From a virus, in IMG/VR virus record IMGVR_UViG_3300029319_000572, positions 1 to 22,145 of that record: 22,145 nt of DNA. One strand, given 5' to 3'. A model generated the notes under the pieces. It saw nothing but the letters and a program-made list of their open reading frames with translations, was not told the DNA's origin and made no database searches. Numbering within the stretch: position 1 is the stretch's first letter; each line of letters begins with the position of its first letter. The position numbers and the translations under genes were made by a program. Positions 1-22,145 of this stretch are shown here, in pieces.

Positions 1-264
1 GTTCTTGGCTATCTGGATAGCAATATGTGATTTGCCGATTGAAGGCGGTCCAAAAATCTCAACGATACGACCCTCAGGCAGTCCGCCGTTTGGTTTTCCT
101 GCTACCAAATAATCAAGTTGTTTGGACCCTGTTTTGATCCATCTATTTACATGGGTCGGGCTGTCATCATAGGCAAGATTATAAGCAATCCTGTTCCCAT
201 GTTCTTTATTGAGTGACTTAATCAAGTCAGATGTAAAGTCGCTCGTATCATTTTTTCTTGGCAT
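1..264 (-). CDS. uvsX: UvsX/RecA-like recombinase, N-terminal part (runs off the left edge)
   Basis: Only the first 88 codons are in the window. The translation starts MPRKNDTSDF and contains a RecA-type nucleotide-binding loop, GPPSIGKS, at about residues 73-80 (Walker A, GxxxxGKS), preceded by the usual RecA-family lead-in (LDYLVAG...GGLPEGRIVEIFG). By family, this protein forms ATP-dependent filaments on single-stranded DNA and drives strand exchange in phage recombination-dependent replication, working with gp32. The ATG at 262-264 is chosen because it follows a good AGGAG ribosome site and opens the frame directly after the promoter at 290-318. UvsX is preferred to host-type RecA because gp32 lies immediately upstream in a T4-like setting. 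A DnaB-like or Sms-like ATPase is less likely but cannot be excluded from the N terminus alone. Confidence 0.82.
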   Translation of the reverse strand, partial: MPRKNDTSDFTSDLIKSLNKEHGNRIAYNLAYDDSPTHVNRWIKTGSKQLDYLVAGKPNGGLPEGRIVEIFGPPSIGKSHIAIQIAKN

Positions 265-384: not shown

Positions 385-1161
385 TTACAGATCAAAGTCT
401 TCAAGATCAGCAAAAGCATCATCAATCTTATTAAAAGTCTTACCAGAATCTGCATTCTTGGCAGGCTTAGAATTTGAACGATGCTCTTCTACTTCAGCTT
501 CAGTCTCGTCACCTTCGTTTAGCCAGTTATTGATAATATTCTCTAGCTTTTCGTAGGACTCGAGCTGATAGAAGTCATCCAAGTTGGGAATGGCTGATGT
601 CCATTCCTTAACATTGTCAGCTGAACCGAGTGGGGTTGACTTTGGTCGTGGACGAACTTCTGTGGTTGCCCACTTCATCCCTGGTGCCTTTGAACAGAAC
701 ACCTTGACATCGTGACCTTCGTTAATGTCAGTGATGTCTCCATAGTCCGGATCCAGCATGACGTTTAGAAGGTTCTGATACACTTGCTTTCCGAAAGCCC
801 AAAGACGTACGCCTTCTGACTCTTCACCGCGGACAATTACCGCAGCATAGGATCGCATCTTAGGATAAAGCTTCTTGGCCAATTCGTATGACTCCTTTGA
901 GCCCTCATCGCGAAGCTTATTAATGAGCTCTTGAATAGGGTCTGGCTTACCAAATTGATAAGGCGAAAGAAGTCCTGGATTGTTACCAATATTATAATAG
1001 AAGTAACGCTCCTTGAATGGATTTCCATCATTGTCTGGGAAAGCAATAATACGAACCGCGTATTCCTTTCCTTCTTCGGGGCGCCAAAAGACACGCCGCT
1101 TTGAATTGTTTCCAGATAGTTGTCCGAGCTTTTTACGCAATGCGTTAAAGTCAATAGCCAT
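385..1161 (-). CDS. 32: gp32-like single-stranded DNA binding protein
   Basis: A 258-aa protein resembling T4 gp32, which coats single-stranded DNA during replication, recombination and repair. Visible family signs: a basic N-terminal patch (NSKRR, about residues 19-23) where T4 has its cooperativity (LAST) motif; a core block with VRLWAFGKQVYQNLLNVML matching the gp32 core YRFGKKIWDKI-type segment; the SAIPNLDDFY segment, close to SAIPNIDD of T4; and an acidic tail ending DDAFADLEDFDL, the part that in T4 contacts partner replication proteins. It is shorter than T4 gp32 (301 aa) and lacks the Cys/His zinc cluster: I see only one cysteine. The start is fixed by a strong AAAGGAG site. It has its own promoter and its own terminator and lies directly upstream of uvsX, as expected for a highly expressed replication gene. 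Function is by family resemblance. Confidence 0.88.
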   Translation of the reverse strand: MAIDFNALRKKLGQLSGNNSKRRVFWRPEEGKEYAVRIIAFPDNDGNPFKERYFYYNIGNNPGLLSPYQFGKPDPIQELINKLRDEGSKESYELAKKLYPKMRSYAAVIVRGEESEGVRLWAFGKQVYQNLLNVMLDPDYGDITDINEGHDVKVFCSKAPGMKWATTEVRPRPKSTPLGSADNVKEWTSAIPNLDDFYQLESYEKLENIINNWLNEGDETEAEVEEHRSNSKPAKNADSGKTFNKIDDAFADLEDFDL

Positions 1162-1258: not shown

Positions 1259-1489
1259 CTATTTCTTCTGAACGAAGCTGTAAAGTTTTTCAGCCTCAGC
1301 AATAATATCTTCAGTGGTTGGAAACGTAGGATAAGTGACAGTTTTAATGTCAAAGGTCTTATCTCGTTCCAGGCTTAGGTGCATGTGTTGTTCAACTCTA
1401 TCATGCTCTTTGTGGTATCTTTGCATCAAGATACCTTCGGCTTGTGCCAACAAACCAGCGCGTAGCGCGTACGGATTATTACTACTCAT
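1259..1489 (-). CDS. Hypothetical 76-aa protein upstream of gp32
   Basis: A small soluble protein starting MSSNNPYALRAGLL and ending EKLYSFVQKK. The layout, an N-terminal NPYxLR helix, a middle charged helix (HKEHDRVEQHMH) and a C-terminal FPTTEDIIAEAEKLYSFV helix, resembles a small protein of unknown function that I recall from many marine T4-like phages. That is from memory of sequence style, not from a search. No catalytic motif, signal peptide or membrane segment is visible. The start has a clear AGGAG site 7 nt upstream. It has its own promoter and precedes gp32, so it is probably expressed with the replication genes. No function is assigned. Confidence 0.78.
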   Translation of the reverse strand: MSSNNPYALRAGLLAQAEGILMQRYHKEHDRVEQHMHLSLERDKTFDIKTVTYPTFPTTEDIIAEAEKLYSFVQKK

Positions 1490-1571: not shown

Positions 1572-1835
1572 TTAATTTTCGTCTTCGCCTGATCCATAAG
1601 GCTTATCTCCAGGACCGTGTCCCGATGCGCCTAATGGACCGGTGTAACCAGTAATTCCACCAGTAACAGATGCTTCGTCAGCATCCATTTCTTCAGTCTC
1701 TTCCTCTTCCTCATACTGAGGTTGGGGTTCATCGCGGTGTTTTTCAGTTGTAGTGTCTGGCTCTCCAAGAAGATTTTTCTTTTTCTCTTCGGCCAAAACC
1801 TGCCTTACAAATAACCTTACTAATTCCATATCCAT
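1572..1835 (-). CDS. Small acidic protein with RxFVRxxL N terminus (87 aa)
   Basis: No recognised family. The protein has three parts: an N-terminal amphipathic stretch (MDMELVRLFVRQVLAEEKKK), a very acidic middle (QYEEEEETEEMDADE), and a Gly-rich tail (GGITGYTGPLGASGHG...). The N terminus resembles that of the next gene upstream (RQFVRLLLEKEEE) at R, F, V, R and L. The ATG at 1833-1835 is preferred over the TTG at 1848-1850 because GGGGAG lies at proper distance before the ATG. The start is 2 nt after the stop of the 208-aa gene, so the two are translated as neighbours in one message. High charge and low complexity suggest a disordered protein; a scaffold, internal virion or inhibitor role is possible but not shown. 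Confidence 0.7.
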   Translation of the reverse strand: MDMELVRLFVRQVLAEEKKKNLLGEPDTTTEKHRDEPQPQYEEEEETEEMDADEASVTGGITGYTGPLGASGHGPGDKPYGSGEDEN

Positions 1836-1837
1836 GA

Positions 1838-2464
1838 TTAAACTCCCCAATTCGTTGCTTTACTGCTGGTGTAAATAATAAAAGAATCCTTGCCTTTGAC
1901 TCGCTCGACTCTTAAATTTTTAATAACCGTTGAATCGGCGCTAAGATACCCTGCTTTATTAGCTGCAGAAAGAAGAGCTCTAATAAAACCAAAAGATCTT
2001 TTTCCGCCTTTATCATCTTCTTTCCACTGGGGTTTTAATGTAAGGTGGACGCCGTTTTGATTTTTAGAAGATTTCACCAAAATCGCTTCGTCAATTAACG
2101 CACCCATTTCTCCAGCGGCTGCAGAATTAAATAGTTTAGCTAAAGAAGCATGCCAGGTTCTTCCAGTCGATTTTTGAACACCTAATTCATCTAACATATC
2201 CTTGGCCTCCTTTGGAGTACCGTTTGATCGATATTTCATGTTAGCCAAACCGGCATCTGTAATGGGTCGACCTTTGGATAAAGTGTTATCTGTATCTACT
2301 TTTAAAACTTCGCGGTCGTCGCCAATAGTTTTTTCAGAATCTTGCTCTGCTCGACGTCGTTTCTTTTTTTGGTTTTCAGATTCTCTTTTCGGCTTGTCTT
2401 CACTTGCTTGTTCTTCTTCTTTTTCTAAAAGAAGCCTTACAAATTGTCTAGTAGCTGTATTCAT
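1838..2464 (-). CDS. Hypothetical 208-aa protein, charged N terminus
   Basis: No family recognised. It starts MNTATRQFVRLLLEKEEE, followed by a highly charged, probably disordered stretch to about residue 60 (KPKRESENQKKKRRRAEQDSEK). A more globular C-terminal half then includes GALIDEAILVKSSK, a basic aromatic segment (KRSFGFIRALLSAANKAGYL) and the strand-like VERVKGKDSFIIYTSS. The start codon overlaps the polymerase stop as ATGA (2461-2464), so translation is probably coupled to the upstream polymerase gene. The N-terminal 15 residues resemble those of the next gene downstream. The mixed basic/acidic stretch next to a polymerase would fit nucleic acid or virion-core binding, but this is inference. 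Confidence 0.72.
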   Translation of the reverse strand: MNTATRQFVRLLLEKEEEQASEDKPKRESENQKKKRRRAEQDSEKTIGDDREVLKVDTDNTLSKGRPITDAGLANMKYRSNGTPKEAKDMLDELGVQKSTGRTWHASLAKLFNSAAAGEMGALIDEAILVKSSKNQNGVHLTLKPQWKEDDKGGKRSFGFIRALLSAANKAGYLSADSTVIKNLRVERVKGKDSFIIYTSSKATNWGV

Positions 2465-3531
2465 AATTTTTCAACCTTCACCGGTAATTTAAATTGCAGG
2501 CCGACATCTAATGCATCAACCGGAGTTTTGTTCTGCTTGTATATAAATATGAGGCCATCGTGAATTATCCAATGTGGAACTATATCAACCAGCTTAGAAA
2601 AATTATAAAATCCGTACAGCGCAGCATCAGCGGCCGATGATTGAAGCCATAAAGCCAAGAGATGCTTCCCAGTTGCACCGTTTAGATTGACAAGCCTACC
2701 AAACATATTTCGTATACAGTCGTTTTCTGTCAGGCACTCTAGCTCTTTAATTTTTTCAGATACCTTAAAATAGTCCTCTATCATTTTTGCAAACTTATCT
2801 CCGCGACCTGATCCATATAGCGCAGCCATCGTTGCTATTTTAACCTTGGCACGACTTATTTTGTTATCGAATATATCTCTTTGCAAAACATCATAAATAT
2901 CGGTACGAGGCTCACGACCTTGAGAAACTAAAAGAACGTTTGGCTCGATAGAAACAAAATCAATGGAATAACCATCCTCTAAACCTTTCCTTAAGCCTGA
3001 ATGCATAGTAAGAACGTTTGGGCCTCCAATTACCGACAATCTTCCTGTTTTAGTCTTCGTTCTTAGGTACATGGGTTTAGATAGCTGTCCATCCCAAAGA
3101 TGCGGTCTAATATGGCTATTTATATGTTTTTCTAAATTAGAATCCACTAAATCTAAATTATAAACAGCCGGTTTTAACGAATCTATGAAATAATTTATTT
3201 TTGCGTGAATACTAATTAAGCGACCATCGTGGACGTTAGTCAATTCATCGTAAAAACCTATCTGTTTGTTTACTAGATCCTGGAATTTTTGATTTCCTAT
3301 ATAAAGACTCCAGGGTGGACTTACACCTAGAATTTTTGAGGATTCCATATAGTTTTCAGGAATAAGGGGTTCGCATGTGTTTCCAAAGATTTTACACATT
3401 TCTGATAATGATCTGATTCCATCATCTGCCGTCACGCAGTCATCTTCAATAGTAGAAGACCAACTATACTGACCTAAACCATAAACAAGGTGAGACGATG
3501 TAACAAAGTTTTTAGACTTAATAACTAACAT
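2461..3531 (-). CDS. Minimal family A (Pol I/T7-type) DNA polymerase domain protein
   Basis: A 356-aa protein carrying the palm and fingers motifs of family A DNA polymerases in correct order. TGRLS at 162-166 is followed by GGPNVLTM, like the PNLQ block. Motif A is D191-FVSI-E196, keeping the metal-binding Asp and the Glu. TDIYDVLQRDIF (210-221) resembles the DIH...AAE segment. Motif B is R227-AKVK231 through Y239-G240, keeping Arg, Lys and Tyr-Gly, with Met at the usual Phe position. LQSSAADAAL lies at 296-305, and motif C is H324-D325-G326, where the usual Glu is Gly. The GSGRGDKF and final HD context look closer to T7 than to E. coli Pol I. There is no 3'-5' exonuclease domain and little room for a full thumb; residues 1-105 are unrecognised. 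Family A enzymes in phages usually exceed 550 aa. The gene follows the hub gene and a late promoter. Both catalytic Asp are present, so activity is plausible, possibly specialised. Confidence 0.85.
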   Translation of the reverse strand: MLVIKSKNFVTSSHLVYGLGQYSWSSTIEDDCVTADDGIRSLSEMCKIFGNTCEPLIPENYMESSKILGVSPPWSLYIGNQKFQDLVNKQIGFYDELTNVHDGRLISIHAKINYFIDSLKPAVYNLDLVDSNLEKHINSHIRPHLWDGQLSKPMYLRTKTKTGRLSVIGGPNVLTMHSGLRKGLEDGYSIDFVSIEPNVLLVSQGREPRTDIYDVLQRDIFDNKISRAKVKIATMAALYGSGRGDKFAKMIEDYFKVSEKIKELECLTENDCIRNMFGRLVNLNGATGKHLLALWLQSSAADAALYGFYNFSKLVDIVPHWIIHDGLIFIYKQNKTPVDALDVGLQFKLPVKVEKL

Positions 3532-3557
3532 AACTATAATATAGCATTGTTTGTTTT

Positions 3558-3565
3558 TATTTATA
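3558..3565 (-). promoter_or_regulatory. T4-type late promoter TATAAATA before the polymerase gene
   Basis: A perfect match to the T4 late promoter octamer lies in the 42-nt gap between the hub gene stop and the polymerase start. The expected transcription start about 6 nt downstream gives a leader of roughly 20 nt. The leader has no clear Shine-Dalgarno sequence before the ATG at 3531. Confidence 0.7.
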
Positions 3566-3573
3566 AAACAACT

Positions 3574-6500
3574 TTAACTATCAGCAGCGTCTGAGCCCAG
3601 TGCGCTGACTTCAGCAATCATTTTACTGAAGTTGCCAAGCAAGCTTTGGAACGTACCAAATTTCTGTAGAGGCACAAACTTTACAGTTGTTGTAAATTTT
3701 CCAGGAGAGAATTTATGACTAACTCCACTAACTCCGTATACATCATCAAGAGTCGTTCCAGTACCGAAGTCTATGAAATACTGCTGGCCAAAATTCATTA
3801 ACGGGCACCCATAAATTTCCATAGATAATTGTGCTGGAAAAGTTCTCAATGGCAAACCGTCATCAGCGCCACCGTCTGGTCCACCACCAGCTCCGCTGGC
3901 TCTTTGCATGTGGATAGTCGCCATACGATTATCTTGTTGGGTTGCTAGGTTAGCCTTAATTACAGCGCTGTAGGTTGAGCCATATTTAATCGATGGCATG
4001 TTTCTGTGAAATAGATATTTCAGCCCTGCAGGACCACCTTTTATTCTAACATATTCGATGTTTAAGTTGTCTTGAATTTCTTCTATTGTTGCCGGATTAG
4101 TTTCTAATCCAGAAACGGCATCAAAGGTGGGAGATAACTGGTCTATTGGAACAGAGTTTCCACTAGAATCAACGCCTTCAAGGATGTCTAGTTCAGCGAG
4201 AACCGCCATCTGCTCGGCAAAAGCGGCTGCATAATTAGACAAACTTATCGCTCTTTGAGAATCTGCATCGGGCGGATCTTCAAGCGCGCGGAAGGCAGCA
4301 ACAGCTGCAGTATTAATCGCAGATGATAGACTGCCTCTTAAAGATTCCCACATCTCTGCAAACCCATTAAATGAAGTTGCTGATTGATCAAAGAAATGTA
4401 TTCTTAGAATAGTTGAATTGTCTCCGCCAGAAGAAGCATCGGCGCCAGGAACTGTTTCAAGATACATTTGAACCGATGGTTTGGTAAATTTCTGCTCAGA
4501 TCCTGGGCCATAAGCAGCTTCAAAAACAGCTTTTTTCTCAGAGGCTATCTGGGTTCTTGCTTCTTGACTTTCTTCATACTGAGATCTAAGTTTCGATTTT
4601 CCGGTTTCTGGGTCTCTTTCATAGATTGAACCGAATCCAAATATGTCACTGGCGATGTTGTTGAAAAAAGTTGAATTCATAAAACCAACGAAGCCAGCAA
4701 GAGTCATCGATGGAGACTTCTTTACTTTTGCTTTCAATTGTTCTTCGAAAACACTGAGATTAATTGGAAATGAACCAACGTCATGATCCCTGGCATAGGT
4801 CGAATATTGGTTCATTGGATAGAACATCAATTGAACTTCATCGAATTTCCTTGTTGAAGCAAGAGGTTTAGCTATAAACTCTAAGGCTATTCGTGCAAAA
4901 GAGCTATATCCAACTAATCTTCCAAAACCTTCGTCGTTGTAATCAGGATGATATTCAATACCAACTGCAGAGCAACCTTTGGCGTACGGATCATCTCCAG
5001 AAGAAACCGCAGCTTGTTGGGCTTGTGTTGCTGCCTGGATTTGCGATTCAAGATTACTGGCAGCAACCACGGCTTGTTGCATGTTGTTGGCTAAGTCAGT
5101 GTAATCTTCGCTGGCGTTTGGATTGCTCTGAATAGAATTTATTACGGACTGCAGTTCTTGCTTATCTTCGTCAGACATGGACATTAATGCGGAGACGCTA
5201 TTTGCTTTACCCATGACCTGCTCGCCAACCATTTCCTCATTCTCTACTAAATCCGCTCTAATGGATCTCTTTATTTCTCGAATAGATCTTAGAAGGGCTT
5301 TAATTTGCTCAAAAGAATTGGCAACGTTATGATCAGTAATCATTCTGAAAGTTAAGTCATTGTTTCCTTTAGAAACTAGTTTTAGATTTATATCTACTTC
5401 ACCAACATCATTAAATGACATCCCAGAATTTACAACCTGAAATTTTTCTTTGACCCTTAATGCATTAAGCATTGTAGCAAAGTCATTAGCGCCACCCATG
5501 CCTTCAGGATGTGACCAGCCATATTCCGCTAATATCTCAATATTTGCCAATCCGTCAGGCTTAACAAGCTGACCTATCTCAGCCAACCTAGAGCGGTCGT
5601 GCAATGTAAAAGACATCGATGCGGATTTTGTAGAAATCATGCCTCTAGCCGGTACAACTTCGACGTCGAAAGATTTCAATGTCATAAAAGGCCTAAACCT
5701 GTCTATTACACTGGCTTGCCGGCCCGCAGGAGTCATTCTCTCTGGGCCTATATCATAATGTGGTTCGTTTCCATTAACTAGAGTCTGTGGGCTTGTAAAT
5801 ACTTCCATTCCTGCAACAGTGGCTGGTGCTGCTTCGGTTTTTGGCTGTCCGTTCTCATCGAAAGCGATCGTTCCGTCATCGTTATAAACCTGTTGTGTAG
5901 GAAGTTGAAGACCTTTTGGTAAAGCTCGAACCCAAGGATCAGTTTCTTCAACGACGGCTTTACCGTTTAGAAACCTAAGTAAGCTAATTCCATCACCTAT
6001 TTTAATCTCGCCACCTATATCTTCAACTTGCTTTGTTTTAGTAAGCAGTTTGATGTCAACATAAGGTTGACATTTTGAAATTTCAACGGTGGGCAATAAA
6101 TTTAAAAATATTCCGACCAGACCCGAACTTCTGTTTGCAAAATTCAGAGCAGGGTTATGAAATTGTATTGCTGTTATGTTTGGGGCTTCTTTTGTAGGAG
6201 CATCAAAACTTGAATTAAAATTATTCCCAGGACCCAGTATAGTCGACATTTGTCCCCAACTACAGAAATCAGGAGTTATGTCTTCAGCATGGATTGTAAA
6301 CAATCTTCCGTGATCAGTGTCGCCATTGATCGCTGCCACAAGATTATCACCAGGATCAGCACCAGCGACAAAATCAGATGCAGCTTCGATAAACTGTGAA
6401 GTAAATGTACCTCCATCTGTCATTCCCACCAAAGCACCGATTAAAACCTCTAGATCACTTCCTGGCGCTACGTCGACTTCAGAATCCATCGATTCAAAAG

Positions 6501-6642
6501 CATCTGTTGCAGAAGCAGGGTCAACTCCGCCACCGGTGGAAGCCAAATTCAGTAACCTGGCCACAAATTGGTGTTCGCCAATATCTCCAGTGAAAAAACC
6601 TAGTCTGTTAACAGCTCTTCTTATGTAATCAGAATTCGACAT
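3574..6642 (-). CDS. Baseplate hub-like structural protein (1022 aa)
   Basis: A large virion protein, most likely part of the central baseplate hub. Around residues 330-430 it has SMSFTLHDRSRLAEIGQLV, an EYGWSHPEG stretch and LRVKEKFQVVNSGMSF, followed by strand-rich segments. Near the C terminus (about 935-990) the pattern YGCPLMNFGQQYFIDFGTG, then YGVSGVSHKFSPGKFTTTVKF, matches the gpD/gp44/gp27 hub fold ending, in which a strand pair carries a V-x-x-V-x-H element before a final beta strand. The middle (about 470-560) is helical and Gln/Ala-rich, possibly coiled coil. T4 gp27 is only 391 aa, so this protein is much larger and may combine functions. It starts 1 nt after the LysM gene stop without a strong ribosome site, which suggests coupling. 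The hub assignment is fold-style inference; a virion structural role is more secure. Confidence 0.68.
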   Translation of the reverse strand: MSNSDYIRRAVNRLGFFTGDIGEHQFVARLLNLASTGGGVDPASATDAFESMDSEVDVAPGSDLEVLIGALVGMTDGGTFTSQFIEAASDFVAGADPGDNLVAAINGDTDHGRLFTIHAEDITPDFCSWGQMSTILGPGNNFNSSFDAPTKEAPNITAIQFHNPALNFANRSSGLVGIFLNLLPTVEISKCQPYVDIKLLTKTKQVEDIGGEIKIGDGISLLRFLNGKAVVEETDPWVRALPKGLQLPTQQVYNDDGTIAFDENGQPKTEAAPATVAGMEVFTSPQTLVNGNEPHYDIGPERMTPAGRQASVIDRFRPFMTLKSFDVEVVPARGMISTKSASMSFTLHDRSRLAEIGQLVKPDGLANIEILAEYGWSHPEGMGGANDFATMLNALRVKEKFQVVNSGMSFNDVGEVDINLKLVSKGNNDLTFRMITDHNVANSFEQIKALLRSIREIKRSIRADLVENEEMVGEQVMGKANSVSALMSMSDEDKQELQSVINSIQSNPNASEDYTDLANNMQQAVVAASNLESQIQAATQAQQAAVSSGDDPYAKGCSAVGIEYHPDYNDEGFGRLVGYSSFARIALEFIAKPLASTRKFDEVQLMFYPMNQYSTYARDHDVGSFPINLSVFEEQLKAKVKKSPSMTLAGFVGFMNSTFFNNIASDIFGFGSIYERDPETGKSKLRSQYEESQEARTQIASEKKAVFEAAYGPGSEQKFTKPSVQMYLETVPGADASSGGDNSTILRIHFFDQSATSFNGFAEMWESLRGSLSSAINTAAVAAFRALEDPPDADSQRAISLSNYAAAFAEQMAVLAELDILEGVDSSGNSVPIDQLSPTFDAVSGLETNPATIEEIQDNLNIEYVRIKGGPAGLKYLFHRNMPSIKYGSTYSAVIKANLATQQDNRMATIHMQRASGAGGGPDGGADDGLPLRTFPAQLSMEIYGCPLMNFGQQYFIDFGTGTTLDDVYGVSGVSHKFSPGKFTTTVKFVPLQKFGTFQSLLGNFSKMIAEVSALGSDAADS

Positions 6643-6643
6643 A

Positions 6644-6931
6644 TTATACCAATGCGTTGATCCTTTCTATTTGAATTGGAACATTAATTATAGTACCAGG
6701 AGGGATTTGTAAAGCCCACCCTATATTAGAGGCAGCAGCTAAAACCCACCATAGCCTAGCATCTCCTAAATATTTCGCAGCAACTATATCTAATCGTTCC
6801 GACTCTTTGGTCTTATATCGCTTAAACTTAATTGTGCCGTTTCTAATTCCATTTTTAATTTTATTTATCGATTCATTAGTAGCCAACAATTTTCCGCCGC
6901 GGATTCTTCGATCTGATCTGTATCTATTCAT
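6644..6931 (-). CDS. LysM-like small baseplate protein (gp53/gpX type)
   Basis: A 95-aa protein whose C-terminal half, about residues 47-88, has the LysM-like pattern of tail proteins: ERLDIVAAKYLGDARLWWVL, then a SNIGWAL segment, then IPPGTIINVP. In P2-type phages (gpX), in T4 gp53 and in contractile injection systems, such small LysM proteins bind at the hub-wedge interface of the baseplate and help hold it together. The N-terminal 40 residues are basic (RYRSDRRIRGGK; RNGTIKFKRYK). It lies between the two large baseplate genes, with an AGGAG site and 16 nt of gap upstream and 1 nt downstream. The structural role is well supported by motif and place; identity with gp53 specifically is less sure. 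Confidence 0.78.
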   Translation of the reverse strand: MNRYRSDRRIRGGKLLATNESINKIKNGIRNGTIKFKRYKTKESERLDIVAAKYLGDARLWWVLAAASNIGWALQIPPGTIINVPIQIERINALV

Positions 6932-17019: not shown

Positions 17020-19995
17020 TTAAATTTCTGCGCCTTGGTTAGTTACAACGAAATCAAGTGAAATAAACTCAACGGCTCTAGTAGGTTGTAAGAAGATCTT
17101 ACCACGAACTGTGTTATTTTCAACATCAAGTTGTGTAGTTGTACTAGAGTCGATTATTACCTTAAATCTATCTAATCCTTGCTGAGCTTGGATTCTAGCC
17201 AAGATTGGCTGGACAGCTCCAGAGAACCTTGCTAAGGTACTCTCACGATTAGGTTCGAAGATAATAGTGTTAGCAACTTTCTTGACTTTTCTACGGATGT
17301 CGATAAGCAATCTTCTTACATTAACTCTGTCAAGTGCAGATTGAGCTTGCAGCAACGTTTTCTGTCCGAAAACAACTACACCTTGAGAGCTTGGGAAAGA
17401 AGTGATAGGATTGATATCAACTTCATAGAGTGTGTCAAGATTTGCTCTGTTCATCTTGACCTGCGCTTGTTCAGTAGTTGCCAATGCTCCGCGAGTAAAG
17501 CCCGCAGGTGCAAACCAAGGATGTGCAACCTTATCATTAAGTGCCATTGCTCCTAAAACTGCAACAGATGGAGGACATCTGACATTGGCACCAGAAACTG
17601 GATCTCTGACCAAGCAGTCTGGGAAGTAAGCGGCAGCGAAACTTGTATCTAAGCCACGAGCTTGTAACTTAGCCGCTGTGTTTGTTACACTAATTTCTTG
17701 CACGGAACCCGTTACAATACCCGAAGTGCCGGTATAGTCGCATTCTTCAATGTCCATTACATAAAGGGCATCGAATCTTTCTTCTGTTCTATCGATTGCG
17801 TAATCTGTAACAGCAGGCTCACGAAGACCAGGGATTGCCAGCAACTGAATGTCTATCGATGATTTCTCTGCGATAACATCAAGAGCTTTACGATATGCAG
17901 CAACCGTAGGACCGGCAGTACCACCTTGAACGGCAGAATCAGATATTTCTCTGACAGCTGCAGCATTCAACATTTGCGCCTTATCGGTATCAAAGATGTT
18001 TACTCCGTCAAAGCCACCTTGCATGAAAGTGGTGAACTTGTAGTATCTTCTAGAGGCTTGCTGAGCAAAATCTTTATCAATGTCCAAGAATCTCATGCCT
18101 GAAGTTCCAGGATTTTGACCACTTCTGTAGTATCTTGCCGAAGCCCACTGTGTAGGATCAACAACATCTTCAGCACTCTTGGTCTTAATCAATACTCTTT
18201 CCAAGGTAAATTTACCATTAAGGAATCTGTCAGCATCTAAAACAGCACTGTTTGCATCTGCAACGCCTTCGTTTGCGCCAACCCAAGCTGGATTATTTCC
18301 TTCATAACCTGGATGGTACTTGGTCCAGTTTTTCATGTTATGGTTGATCGCTGTACCATCGTTTGGAATGTCAACATCAGTAACCTTAGTGTTGTGGATT
18401 CCCCAGTAAAGATCAGAAACAACTCTTGCCTTATTTCCAGTGCCACTCGCAACAGAACTTCTGTAGAGAAGCGGAGCCTGTACCATATCAAGGAACATGT
18501 GTTGTTTTGCACTACCACCTTCTGCAGGAAGAGCGGTACTGTCTGGAGAGTGTGGATTTAACATTGTAGAACCAGATGTGACCAAGTGATATGGACCGCG
18601 GAATCCTACTGGAAGGGCTTCTGCATTCATCGTGCCTGCATCGATTGAGGCTACAACCTCAACCCTGATATAAGCTGATTGATTAGCATAGGAACCTTCT
18701 ACTACCAACTTTTGATTTGCAGTTGCTTTATCGAAGTCGTAGAATATGTTCTGATCACCGATAATTCTTGAAATGTATCTAGGACTGTTTGGATCCAAGC
18801 TACAACCAATGAATTTCTCAAGGATAACTGGATTAGTATCGTAGTCGTCAAATCGACGTACTAAGACATCAAAAGTACCATACTTGTTAAGAACATCTCT
18901 GCTCTTTTGAATATTGGCAATAGAGACCTTAACTTTATCATTTCCGTAAACACCGGCGTCTAAAGCGTGGAACTTAAACAAGTTCTTTTCTGAATTACCG
19001 AGCGTTTGAGAAATAATGAAAGGAGTACACGCGTGACGGAATCTATATTCAAACCCTTCATAGTTAGGAACATAATCGCCGCTACCATAGTCGTTTCTAC
19101 CACCAGCACCACTGTTAATCAGAACACGAGTTCTATGACCCTCCAAACCGTGAGATGGAGCAACAACCGCAAGTGCAGGATCAACATCAAAATATGAATA
19201 AAGCAAGTGACCCTTGGTTTCTATAGATCCAGGATCCGTGTTTAAAATCTTTGCAAAGTAGTTGCTTGCGCCAGGATCCATAGAAGCTGAAATAACTTGA
19301 GGATAAGCGCCGGTATAACCGTTCAAGAAGAGAGTAAACGTTGATCCACCGTTTGCACTAAGATCCATGGCTCCGTGTTGAGCACCAGCATCTAAATATT
19401 GACCATAGCTGCCCTGAGCAACCGAAGATCCGGTAGTTGGGTTTGAAGCTCCTGATCCTGAAAGCCCAGGAAGAACCCCAGAAGGAAACATTAAAACGCC
19501 TCTGAGAACCGAGGCTGACATCGGAGTGTCTATGCCTGCATCCTGGAAGTATGTAGAACCAAGAGACTCGGACATGATCGTTCCAAGAAAAAATGTTCTA
19601 CCTAAAGGACCACCAGCTCCTGCTTTGGAGTTGTGTCCAACAGTTCCAACGTCCTGTACTTGTCTTGCTCCGACGACGAATCCAGCATTTTCTACCCTAC
19701 CGGAGGAAAGAGCTTTTTCACCCTTACCAATACCTAGCGTTCTGACGTAAGCACCAGACCGAGCATTTCTAATCCATTCCGCTACTGCGATTGGACCAAA
19801 TTTCTTACCATCAGATGGTCCAAATTTTGATGCAAAGTCTGCCATTGTTGCAAAAGATACTGGAACAAATGCCGGACCTTTTTCAGCCGTACCGATCACA
19901 ACGGCCGGCGTTCCTTGAATAGTTACGGTACCTGGTTGGCTTAAGTCGATCTCGGTTGCGGAGACCCCAGGACTCTTTAGAATTTTTTCTGCCAT
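17020..19995 (-). CDS. 18: Tail sheath protein (gp18-like), complete paralogue
   Basis: A 991-aa contractile sheath subunit. The N terminus, ILKSPGVSATEIDLSQPGTV then GTPAVVIGTAEKGPAFVPVSF, has the usual sheath start used for linking neighbouring subunits, and the C-terminal 140 residues (DRVNVRRLLIDIRRKVKKVA; FKVIIDSSTTTQLDVENNTV; PTRAVEFISLDFVVTN) carry the conserved sheath core with the last strands that knit the sheath mesh. T4 gp18 is 659 aa, so about 330 extra residues are present, probably as surface domains in the middle (roughly 105-300 and 480-600). The next gene upstream encodes a second sheath with the same domains. Start set by CAGGAG before the ATG, just downstream of a late promoter octamer that overlaps the stop of the first sheath gene. 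Confidence 0.93.
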   Translation of the reverse strand: MAEKILKSPGVSATEIDLSQPGTVTIQGTPAVVIGTAEKGPAFVPVSFATMADFASKFGPSDGKKFGPIAVAEWIRNARSGAYVRTLGIGKGEKALSSGRVENAGFVVGARQVQDVGTVGHNSKAGAGGPLGRTFFLGTIMSESLGSTYFQDAGIDTPMSASVLRGVLMFPSGVLPGLSGSGASNPTTGSSVAQGSYGQYLDAGAQHGAMDLSANGGSTFTLFLNGYTGAYPQVISASMDPGASNYFAKILNTDPGSIETKGHLLYSYFDVDPALAVVAPSHGLEGHRTRVLINSGAGGRNDYGSGDYVPNYEGFEYRFRHACTPFIISQTLGNSEKNLFKFHALDAGVYGNDKVKVSIANIQKSRDVLNKYGTFDVLVRRFDDYDTNPVILEKFIGCSLDPNSPRYISRIIGDQNIFYDFDKATANQKLVVEGSYANQSAYIRVEVVASIDAGTMNAEALPVGFRGPYHLVTSGSTMLNPHSPDSTALPAEGGSAKQHMFLDMVQAPLLYRSSVASGTGNKARVVSDLYWGIHNTKVTDVDIPNDGTAINHNMKNWTKYHPGYEGNNPAWVGANEGVADANSAVLDADRFLNGKFTLERVLIKTKSAEDVVDPTQWASARYYRSGQNPGTSGMRFLDIDKDFAQQASRRYYKFTTFMQGGFDGVNIFDTDKAQMLNAAAVREISDSAVQGGTAGPTVAAYRKALDVIAEKSSIDIQLLAIPGLREPAVTDYAIDRTEERFDALYVMDIEECDYTGTSGIVTGSVQEISVTNTAAKLQARGLDTSFAAAYFPDCLVRDPVSGANVRCPPSVAVLGAMALNDKVAHPWFAPAGFTRGALATTEQAQVKMNRANLDTLYEVDINPITSFPSSQGVVVFGQKTLLQAQSALDRVNVRRLLIDIRRKVKKVANTIIFEPNRESTLARFSGAVQPILARIQAQQGLDRFKVIIDSSTTTQLDVENNTVRGKIFLQPTRAVEFISLDFVVTNQGAEI

Positions 19996-20021: not shown

Positions 20022-20029
20022 TATTTATT
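20022..20029 (-). promoter_or_regulatory. Late promoter octamer AATAAATA before the complete sheath gene
   Basis: AATAAATA matches the NATAAATA form of T4-like late promoters and overlaps the last codons of the upstream sheath gene. Transcription would start near 20016, leaving a leader of about 20 nt with CAGGAG before the ATG at 19995. The spacing is nearly that of the site at 3558-3565. Confidence 0.55.
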
Positions 20030-22145
20030 CAAACGAAACACCGGCGTTTGTAATGATAAAATCGATTGAAATAAATTCGATTGATCTAGTTGGGACTACG
20101 ATAATCTTACCATTCAACCTATTGTTTTCTTTATCAAGCTCGGTATTGTTGGTATCATCCATAACAACTCGGAAAGATTCGACACCCTGTTGTGCTTGAA
20201 TAAGCGAAAGTCTAGGCGATACAAGATTAATAAATCTATCTCTCGTTGCTTGGTTATTTTGTTCAAAAAGTAATCTGTCTGCAACACCGATAACTTGGCG
20301 CTTCAATTCGAGCATCATTCTTCTTACGTTGACTCGATCAAGCGCTGATCTGGCCATTTGAAGTGTCTTCTGTCCGAAGATTACAAAATCTCCACCAGGG
20401 AAGGTGGCAATCGGATTAATTCTAGCATCATACAACTCATCGCGATCATTAGTAGTCAATCTTGCAGTGACGTTCTTGACGAATCCTAAAGCACCTCTGT
20501 TGAAACCAGCGGGAGCAAACCAAGGATAAGAAACAGAATCAGTATAAGCAAGTGCTCCGATCGCCGCAATAGAAGAAGGAACCTTAACGTTTCTTCCGCC
20601 GTTTGTAGCGTCCTCGATGAAGACATCTGGGAAATAAGCTGCAGCGTAGTTGTTATCAATGCTTCTTCTTGTGAATTCCTCTGCAGTCTTTACAACTCCA
20701 GGACGGCCAGCTGAATCATCGAACAATCGATTTCCATCTTCATCATACGCTGGAATATCCATAAGATATATTGACATACTGTAGTCTTTATTACGATCAG
20801 CGGCGAAATCAGTGACGTATGGGTCTCTAATGCCAGGGATAGCAAGAATATTTGTTCTTACAGTCATAGGATCGGTCATAATCTCGGCTGCAGCCCTATA
20901 AGAAGCGACAACATTGTTTAATTTACCAGCACCAGACTGTGCATTAGTTGCTGTACCCGAAAGACCGAGACCATTTGTAATACTATCAGCGGCTTTTCCA
21001 CCAGTTTCAGTAGAAGCTGCCTTGTCATTCATTCTCGAGATGTCTTTATCCAATATATTCAATCCGTCGAATCCACCAGAGAAAATATTGGTGAATTTTG
21101 TGAAAGCAGTGAATCTATTGAACAGCAAAGAACTCGAATTGATTAGCGTTGCTAAAGTAATTCTATCTGTATCTTCAATCGGATCGTTCACAGTGTAAGT
21201 TTTTGGATCGACCGAGCCGTTTCTAATGTAAACTGCCTCTTTCATGTGCTGACTTGAAGAGCCAGTCAGAGAACCGTTTGTATCGATATGGCCGGCGCCG
21301 TTCAATTGTTGTCTAAGTGCAACACGCGCCAAAGTAAACTTATGATTGTGGAATGAATCCGACTGGGTGCCGGCAGAAGTGAGTGCATCAAGCTTCTGAA
21401 TACCGGTCAGCTTTGTATAAGTTCTAACAAGCGGATTGATCTCCGATCCAGCATTAGAGTTAAATACATTCGCAGATCCACTAGCAATACGGTCTAATTT
21501 AACACCCCAGTAGAATCTTGCATCAGCTCTTTCTTTCAAGCCAGGCTCACCCAAAAAGACTGGTGAAGAAGATTTCACAGCGCCCTTAGTAACCTTGTAC
21601 CTGAATGGAAGAGGAGGAACGATAGACCCAGTAAGCGTCGTAGTGTCTTTACAATGTAGCCTAGAAGTTCCAAGATCGTAAGAACCGTCATCAGCCGATG
21701 GGTTAGTTCTTGTTGGAGAAGTATTAAGGCCGCCAATTCCTCGGAAACCGAATGGAAGTGCAGCTGCAGGAACTTCGCCAGACTCAAACTCATCAGACAT
21801 TTGTACTCTAACGTATGCTGATCTGTTTGCATACTTTCCAGAAAGCACTAATCTTCTTTCATCTTCGTTTGCTTCGTCAAAGTTAAACCTAAGTTTGAAA
21901 TCACCGATAACTCGTGCAACGAATCTTTCGTCATTTGGATTTAAGCTGCAGCCAGGATATCTTTCAAGAATTTCTGGAGCTAAATCACTATCATCAAACT
22001 TTCTAACTTGAACTTCGAACGTTCCATAATCGTCGTTAGGATCATTAGAGGCTTTAAGGTCAGCAATAGAGATTTTGAATTTATCATTTGCGTATGAACC
22101 GTCAGAAATGCACTCGAAGTGGAATAAGTCGAATTCTGAACTACC
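20025..22145 (-). CDS. Tail sheath protein, second paralogue (partial, runs off the right edge)
   Basis: The frame is open from the window end, so the start is outside; 706 residues are visible, beginning GSSEFDLFHFECISDGSYAN. They align along their length with the neighbouring sheath: SYANDKFKISIADLK versus VYGNDKVKVSIANIQ, YGTFEVQVRKFDD versus YGTFDVLVRRFDD, GKYANRSAYVRV versus GSYANQSAYIRV, and C-terminal VPTRSIEFISIDFIITNAG versus QPTRAVEFISLDFVVTNQG. Identity is clear but well below full, so this is an old duplication rather than a recent repeat. A possible GTG at 21848 is internal and should not be used as the start. Both copies keep the conserved C-terminal core, so both may assemble into sheath; one could instead form a special ring or decorate the tail. 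Confidence 0.92.
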   Translation of the reverse strand, partial: GSSEFDLFHFECISDGSYANDKFKISIADLKASNDPNDDYGTFEVQVRKFDDSDLAPEILERYPGCSLNPNDERFVARVIGDFKLRFNFDEANEDERRLVLSGKYANRSAYVRVQMSDEFESGEVPAAALPFGFRGIGGLNTSPTRTNPSADDGSYDLGTSRLHCKDTTTLTGSIVPPLPFRYKVTKGAVKSSSPVFLGEPGLKERADARFYWGVKLDRIASGSANVFNSNAGSEINPLVRTYTKLTGIQKLDALTSAGTQSDSFHNHKFTLARVALRQQLNGAGHIDTNGSLTGSSSQHMKEAVYIRNGSVDPKTYTVNDPIEDTDRITLATLINSSSLLFNRFTAFTKFTNIFSGGFDGLNILDKDISRMNDKAASTETGGKAADSITNGLGLSGTATNAQSGAGKLNNVVASYRAAAEIMTDPMTVRTNILAIPGIRDPYVTDFAADRNKDYSMSIYLMDIPAYDEDGNRLFDDSAGRPGVVKTAEEFTRRSIDNNYAAAYFPDVFIEDATNGGRNVKVPSSIAAIGALAYTDSVSYPWFAPAGFNRGALGFVKNVTARLTTNDRDELYDARINPIATFPGGDFVIFGQKTLQMARSALDRVNVRRMMLELKRQVIGVADRLLFEQNNQATRDRFINLVSPRLSLIQAQQGVESFRVVMDDTNNTELDKENNRLNGKIIVVPTRSIEFISIDFIITNAGVSFE

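Follow-up and report, generated by a model that had tools for sequence, protein, structure and literature searches.

A predicted miniature family A DNA polymerase, conserved between the tail and replication modules of far-T4-like phages

INTRODUCTION

Why would a phage related to T4 encode a DNA polymerase of only 356 amino acids directly behind its baseplate genes, and what would such an enzyme do there? This question is raised by IMG/VR record IMGVR_UViG_3300029319_000572, a fragment of 22 kb (22,145 nt) that was analyzed over its whole length and is referred to below as the window. A first-pass annotation of this DNA had noted the motifs of family A polymerases in the short open reading frame, no exonuclease domain, and an octamer in front of the gene that was read as a late promoter. 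The protein was proposed to be an extra polymerase, made late, in a phage expected to replicate with a family B enzyme of the gp43 type. Here, we examine this protein, termed mini-PolA, together with its relatives, its genomic neighborhood, and the replicative polymerases that accompany it.

RESULTS

Gene content of the window

The main genes of the window are all encoded on the minus strand (Table 1). The series begins with two sheath-like genes and continues with the tail tube gene and the gene for a baseplate hub-like protein, followed by a probable tape measure of 1564 aa and by large proteins of the baseplate type. The gp53-like wedge, mini-PolA, two small ORFs, and another small ORF come next, and the series closes with a single-stranded DNA binding protein (SSB) resembling gp32 and the beginning of a RecA gene. 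The stop codon of mini-PolA overlaps the start codon of the 208-aa gene (ATGA, 2461-2464). The 1022-aa protein on the other side of mini-PolA had no match in family searches and is found in the same position and order in L019 and L103, the loci that carry the closest mini-PolA relatives.

TABLE 1 Location and assignment of mini-PolA, its active-site positions, and the neighboring genes in the window (residues after the equals sign or in brackets are those of E. coli Pol I)
Feature	Position	Strand	Basis
RecA/UvsX-type recombinase, N-terminal part	1..264	-	PF00154 2.4e-8; gene continues off the window
gp32-like single-stranded DNA binding protein	385..1161	-	PF08804 3.4e-9; phrog_1192 1.3e-23
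76-aa conserved small protein	1259..1489	-	homologues in L019 and L103
92-aa acidic small protein	1572..1850	-	homologues in L019 and L103
208-aa protein	1838..2464	-	homologues after mini-PolA in L019 and L103
Mini-PolA, predicted 356-aa exonuclease-less family A DNA polymerase	2461..3531	-	ORF, iterative profile, AF2, Foldseek
Motif C: H324 D325 G326 = H881 D882 E883	2554..2562	-	
Q297 = Q849, invariant	2641..2643	-	alignment
Motif B/O helix: R227 (R754), K231 (K758), M235 (F762), Y239 (Y766)	2815..2853	-	
E196 = E710; Glu in the subfamily of the window, His in the sister subfamily	2944..2946	-	
D191 = D705, motif A catalytic Asp, invariant	2959..2961	-	alignment
R164 = R668, TGRLS motif, invariant	3040..3042	-	alignment
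TATAAATA octamer, probably a chance occurrence rather than a conserved late promoter	3558..3565	-	
1022-aa structural (baseplate-type) protein, immediately upstream of mini-PolA	3574..6642	-	
gp53-like baseplate wedge protein	6644..6931	-	phrog_7145 1.8e-7

Several further features of this region were observed. The two tail-sheath-like genes are arranged in tandem (17020-19995 and 20025-21848, minus strand), and their products share 35% identity over 621 aligned columns. The gene for the 76-aa protein between mini-PolA and SSB appears to be duplicated in tandem in L103 (5705-5929 and 5963-6241). The small proteins encoded between mini-PolA and SSB often have N termini in which a brief amphipathic segment closes with (L/I)-x-E, such as MNTATRQFVRLLLE; such N termini were seen in the products of 1838-2464 and 1572-1850 (minus strand) and in L019, L103, L105, L106, L109, L111, L118, and L120, and are reminiscent of the targeting peptide of T4 internal head proteins that is cut by the prohead protease.

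Family A membership and predicted structure

As a single query, the window protein matched nothing in Pfam, the PDB, 50,697 phage records (tblastn), or viral contigs, and a family search of the window DNA gave no PF00476 match. The orphan status suggested by these single-sequence searches is contradicted by iterative profiles with three relatives. The search seeded with the proteins of the window, L019 (62% identity, 355 aa), and L103 (60%, 356 aa) returned 133 ORFs, and the same iterated profile picked up the ordinary 777-aa PolA of Flavobacterium phage immuto at 1.1e-43. The genes of L019, L103, and L104, the next relative (34-35%, 356 aa), occupy the same place, adjoining SSB, while most members of the family are only 12-30% identical to the window protein. 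When a profile of 59 members was compared with the PDB, the best 60 sequences were exclusively chains of the Pol I, Pol nu, and Pol theta types, headed by Taq Pol I (E 1.6e-25). PF00476 was matched individually by 40 of the 59 relatives (E <= 0.001), several of which exceed the Pfam cut-off for this family, whereas the window protein alone gives no match. As had been proposed, an exonuclease domain was not detected: none of the 59 members matched an exonuclease family, which includes the DnaQ-like 3'-5' exonuclease domain, and the N-terminal 5'-3' exonuclease domain that marks Pol I orthologues (PolA1) is not present in the same chain. In a FastTree phylogeny, the mini-PolA sequences grouped into a clade of their own (support 1.0), separate from the eight ordinary enzymes of family A that were included.

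The AlphaFold2 model of the window protein has a pLDDT of 96 and a pTM of 0.92, and its top Foldseek matches are all of the Pol I type (Bst, Taq, Klenow, and Pol nu; probability 1.00). The whole-chain TM scores (on query) of about 0.4-0.57 are moderate, which may be attributed to the much-shortened chain and to domain orientation; in the model, the fingers and the N-terminal part are shorter than those of Pol I. The model of a 440-aa member of the sister subfamily described below superposes on the whole Klenow fragment with a TM score of 0.80 on query, and the family is thus probably descended from a Klenow-type enzyme. The exonuclease part at the N terminus looks vestigial in this 440-aa protein and seems further reduced in the window protein. 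Mini-PolA is accordingly predicted to consist of a Klenow-like palm, fingers, and a reduced thumb, lacking a usable 3'-5' exonuclease. Together, profiles and models place mini-PolA within DNA polymerase family A as a genuine, though strongly reduced, member.

Comparison with close relatives gave pN values of 0.27-0.30 against saturated pS values of 0.73-0.77, and a dN/dS of about 0.15 (0.145) where computable. The closest relatives have 355-356 aa and the same architecture. A decayed fragment of a longer polymerase, a possibility raised in the first-pass annotation, is ruled out by these equal lengths and by the invariant catalytic residues, and the 356-aa ORF is a genuine gene subject to purifying selection.

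Active site and two subfamilies

Alignment with E. coli Pol I located the family A motifs at the positions listed in Table 1, in agreement with the initial reading. Among the nonredundant relatives, R164, D191, Y239, G240, and Q297 are conserved in 111 of 111 sequences, K231 in 110 of 110 readable ones, and D325 in 110 of 111. In motif B (R-x3-K-x3-F/Y-x3-YG), R227, K231, Y239, and G240 are present, and the F/Y position is Met in the window and Ile, Leu, or Phe in relatives. Two residues had been singled out earlier as deviations. The Met is there, at a position that varies in the family. The Gly that replaces Glu after the motif C Asp is likewise real but not the anomaly it was taken for: most mini-PolA members have Ala or Ser at the E883 position, and the other phage family A polymerases aligned have Ser or Gln. 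Both the F762 and E883 positions are thus variable in the mini-PolA family as well as in other phage family A enzymes.

A different pattern was seen at the positions of E710, R754, and H881, for which only two combinations were found. Glu/Arg/His is present in 33 mini-PolA members, including the window, and in the full-length immuto enzyme. His/Tyr/Tyr (E710H/R754Y/H881Y) is present in 78 of 112 sequences, which form the sister subfamily; in examples such as L072:9737-11059, L001:38124-39350, and L017:1-1326, the rest of the family A active site is conserved. Because the outgroups carry Glu/Arg/His (the motif C of T7 failed to align), this combination is the ordinary state, and His/Tyr/Tyr is derived, being confined to a single clade (FastTree support 1.0). 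The change corresponds to one event in the tree, and the perfect co-occurrence of the three residues is therefore not independent evidence of their coupling.

These replacements bear on whether mini-PolA is an enzyme at all. One reading is a polymerase fold that has lost catalysis and acts as a regulatory or DNA-binding factor, such as a partner of SSB or RecA. This would agree with the altered dNTP site of the sister subfamily and with the strong shortening of the entire family. We nevertheless consider it unlikely, as both metal-binding Asp residues and the equivalents of Lys758, Tyr766, and Gln849 are invariant or almost so at identities mostly of 12-30%, a degree of conservation that is hard to account for without catalysis, and as the subfamily of the window has kept the canonical residues. 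The window protein is thus predicted to be catalytically active. Since the sister subfamily has lost E710, R754, and H881, catalysis should not be taken for granted in every member of the family.

E710 of the Klenow fragment excludes ribonucleotides. A polymerase specialized for unusual nucleotides or RNA primers, with an altered nucleotide site in the E710H/R754Y/H881Y subfamily, would be in keeping with this role of E710 and with a triple change that one clade shows throughout. Phage polymerases specialized for modified dNTPs are known, namely, DpoZ (PMC8775771), and immuto possesses 7-deazaguanine DNA-modification genes. However, the subfamily of the window has the ordinary Glu/Arg/His and no modification genes were seen in the window, which makes such a specialization highly improbable.

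Genomic neighborhood and the late-promoter question

Considering at each locus only those sides with enough sequence to be testable, mini-PolA is followed on the same strand by RecA in 71 of 73 loci, by a 5'-3' exonuclease in 56 of 58 (PF02739 at 7.1e-30 in L103), and by DnaB in 47 of 49. SSB follows in 85 of 98 loci, a figure that is biased for those loci that were found via SSB, others having been found via the polymerase itself. Upstream, a homologue of the gp53-like protein is present in 54 of 59 loci. The same gene order is annotated in immuto and is readable in the 484-kb uncultured phage LR756508. Mini-PolA therefore sits where the tail module meets the replication module, and it is the first gene of a conserved cluster of small genes, SSB, RecA, 5'-3' exonuclease, and DnaB in far-T4-like marine phages. 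Its earlier placement at the end of a baseplate operon was correct in that it lies behind baseplate genes, but it equally opens this cluster.

This arrangement is relevant to the proposal of a late or virion polymerase, which would be expressed with the tail genes and act at packaging ends or ride in the particle. In its favor, mini-PolA immediately follows baseplate genes encoded on its own strand, and the next two genes may carry candidate head-targeting-like N termini. However, mini-PolA itself has no such tag, and its constant downstream neighbors are replication and recombination genes. As to the octamer, TATAAATA does precede the gene, but the window contains 3 copies where 1.26 are expected, and 12 of 100 shuffles reach 3. 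In the 120-base upstream regions of 102 distinct homologues, it was found once, in the window, where 1.3 occurrences were expected; it is missing upstream of the homologue in L019 and L103 and before each of the ten further gene starts of the window that were tested. A late promoter was ruled out by this upstream test, and since the octamer is neither conserved nor above chance, the late-expression idea is left with the position of the gene alone. No evidence from the sequence supports a late gene status, and a late or virion polymerase is judged very unlikely.

The mini-PolA family comprises at least 562 confirmed IMG/VR loci, as opposed to 3 phage genomes among the 50,697 annotated records. 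Among the records searched, no cultured phage represents the subfamily of the window, and many members of the family carry a hypothetical label or lack annotation altogether. Homologue searches showed that mini-PolA is absent from T4, a cyanophage, and RM378, so that T4-type replication can do without it. The RM378 genes named DNA polymerase or Pol I-like were checked as candidates and do not belong to this family.

A second polymerase in the relatives

In the subfamily of the window, large relatives encode a family C polymerase (PF07733), the open frames spanning 1188-1365 aa (G001 with 267 kb, G002 with 235 kb, G003, G004, G007, G009, and G020; G002 and G020 appear to be almost identical), rather than the gp43-type family B replicase that had been anticipated. 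In the sister subfamily, family B enzymes of 816-855 aa are present in G005, G006, G012, G013, G015, G017, and Microcystis phage Mel-JY01, and immuto has its full-length family A polymerase (777 aa) beside mini-PolA. No replicative polymerase was found on several shorter contigs with mini-PolA, as is expected of fragments. In LR756508.1 (W04; 484 kb), mini-PolA is accompanied by family B matches in two separate open frames and by a family C match (47415-48068, 260623-262308, and 266583-266900).

These co-occurring family C, B, or full-length A enzymes rule out mini-PolA as the replicative polymerase of the phage. Because the relatives with mini-PolA also encode a full replicative polymerase, mini-PolA appears to be a conserved accessory polymerase; for the window this is inferred from its relatives, its own replicase lying off the 22-kb fragment. 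The initial view of an extra polymerase, perhaps for repair, agrees with the separate full-size replicases and with the intact active-site residues and fold. In one group of marine jumbo phages, about half were reported to encode a family C polymerase (PMC9123017).

DISCUSSION

We propose, with a probability of roughly 0.55, that mini-PolA is an exonuclease-less gap-filling and recombination polymerase that works with SSB, RecA, and a separate 5' nuclease. In such a scheme, the genome would be replicated by a different, full-size polymerase, and mini-PolA would take over short stretches of synthesis to which the replicative enzyme is poorly suited. The separate 5' nuclease would remove primers or flaps, leaving gaps that mini-PolA would fill, and mini-PolA would also extend 3' ends made by RecA/SSB recombination. 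The net result would be a Pol I split into two genes, one for the polymerase and one for the 5' nuclease.

The main rival is a low-fidelity translesion or mutagenic polymerase comparable to PolA2/APEX of Actinobacteria, whose exonuclease is dead; it would extend past lesions during synthesis that depends on RecA. The lack of exonuclease family matches in all 59 members and the cluster shared with RecA and SSB would fit, and there is a published precedent, in that accessory enzymes of family A whose exonuclease is dead are regarded as mutagenic in repair (PMC12926913). However, about half of the ordinary bacterial Pol I enzymes have also lost the proofreading residues (PMC12926913), so the absence of an exonuclease alone does not mean lesion bypass, and the dNTP-binding residues in the subfamily of the window are canonical. 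We regard a translesion role as rather improbable.

For the family as a whole, a broader reading can be offered tentatively. Far-T4-like phages may possess an ancestral, dedicated accessory family A polymerase that was kept in place while families A, B, and C replaced one another in the role of replicative polymerase. In a large branch, the nucleotide site may have been remodeled from Glu/Arg/His to His/Tyr/Tyr for a new substrate or a nonpolymerizing role. This scenario as a whole is possible rather than probable. If mini-PolA is an accessory polymerase as proposed, a large group of environmental T4-related phages keeps a polymerase that is separate from the replicase and constant in gene position, with the replicase varying between families A, B, and C. 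The benefit that a phage draws from an accessory polymerase, be it Okazaki maturation, gap repair, recombination, or mutagenesis, thereby becomes testable. To our knowledge, mini-PolA may be among the smallest natural family A polymerases, and its small size and natural nucleotide-site variant are of possible interest for polymerase engineering.

Already known are family A itself, accessory exonuclease-less family A enzymes in bacteria, and one phage record that annotates the gene as a family A polymerase. What appears to be new is its recognition as a miniature polymerase in its own right that is conserved in far-T4-like phages, stays constant while the replicase family changes, and has a two-state nucleotide site. 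A literature search, mostly outside subscription journals, revealed no description of the gene; the searched passages of a survey of far-T4 phages do not mention it and state that T4 transcription-regulation genes were not detected (PMC4360716).

Comparison with known systems places mini-PolA as follows. T4 gp43 is likewise a phage DNA polymerase in a T4-related virus, but it belongs to family B and is the replicase of T4, a phage in which mini-PolA was not found. The nearest annotated counterpart is gene 1 of immuto (QQO91919, "DNA polymerase family A"), which is of the same family, precedes SSB, RecA, 5'-3' exonuclease, and DnaB, and coexists with a second, full-length PolA; it differs in its length of 441 aa, its vestigial exonuclease-like N-terminal part, and its membership of the His/Tyr/Tyr subfamily. 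Another example is WWT39333 of Mel-JY01, recorded as a "hypothetical protein" without polymerase annotation, which is of the same family and in the same place in a genome with a family B replicase, whereas it has 408 aa and belongs to the His/Tyr/Tyr subfamily. PolA2/APEX is also an accessory family A enzyme without a working proofreading domain, beside a family C replicase (PMC12926913), but it is bacterial and has a vestigial exonuclease domain and a beta-clamp motif; the phage origin and reduced N terminus of mini-PolA argue against its being a member of that group. With the Klenow fragment, finally, mini-PolA shares the predicted palm, fingers, and thumb fold and the equivalents of R668, D705, E710, R754, K758, Y766, Q849, H881, and D882. 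It differs in having 356 instead of 605 aa, shorter motif spacing, no 5' nuclease domain, Met for F762, and Gly for E883, and 163 instead of 344 residues precede the R668 position, the exonuclease part being short and unrecognizable.
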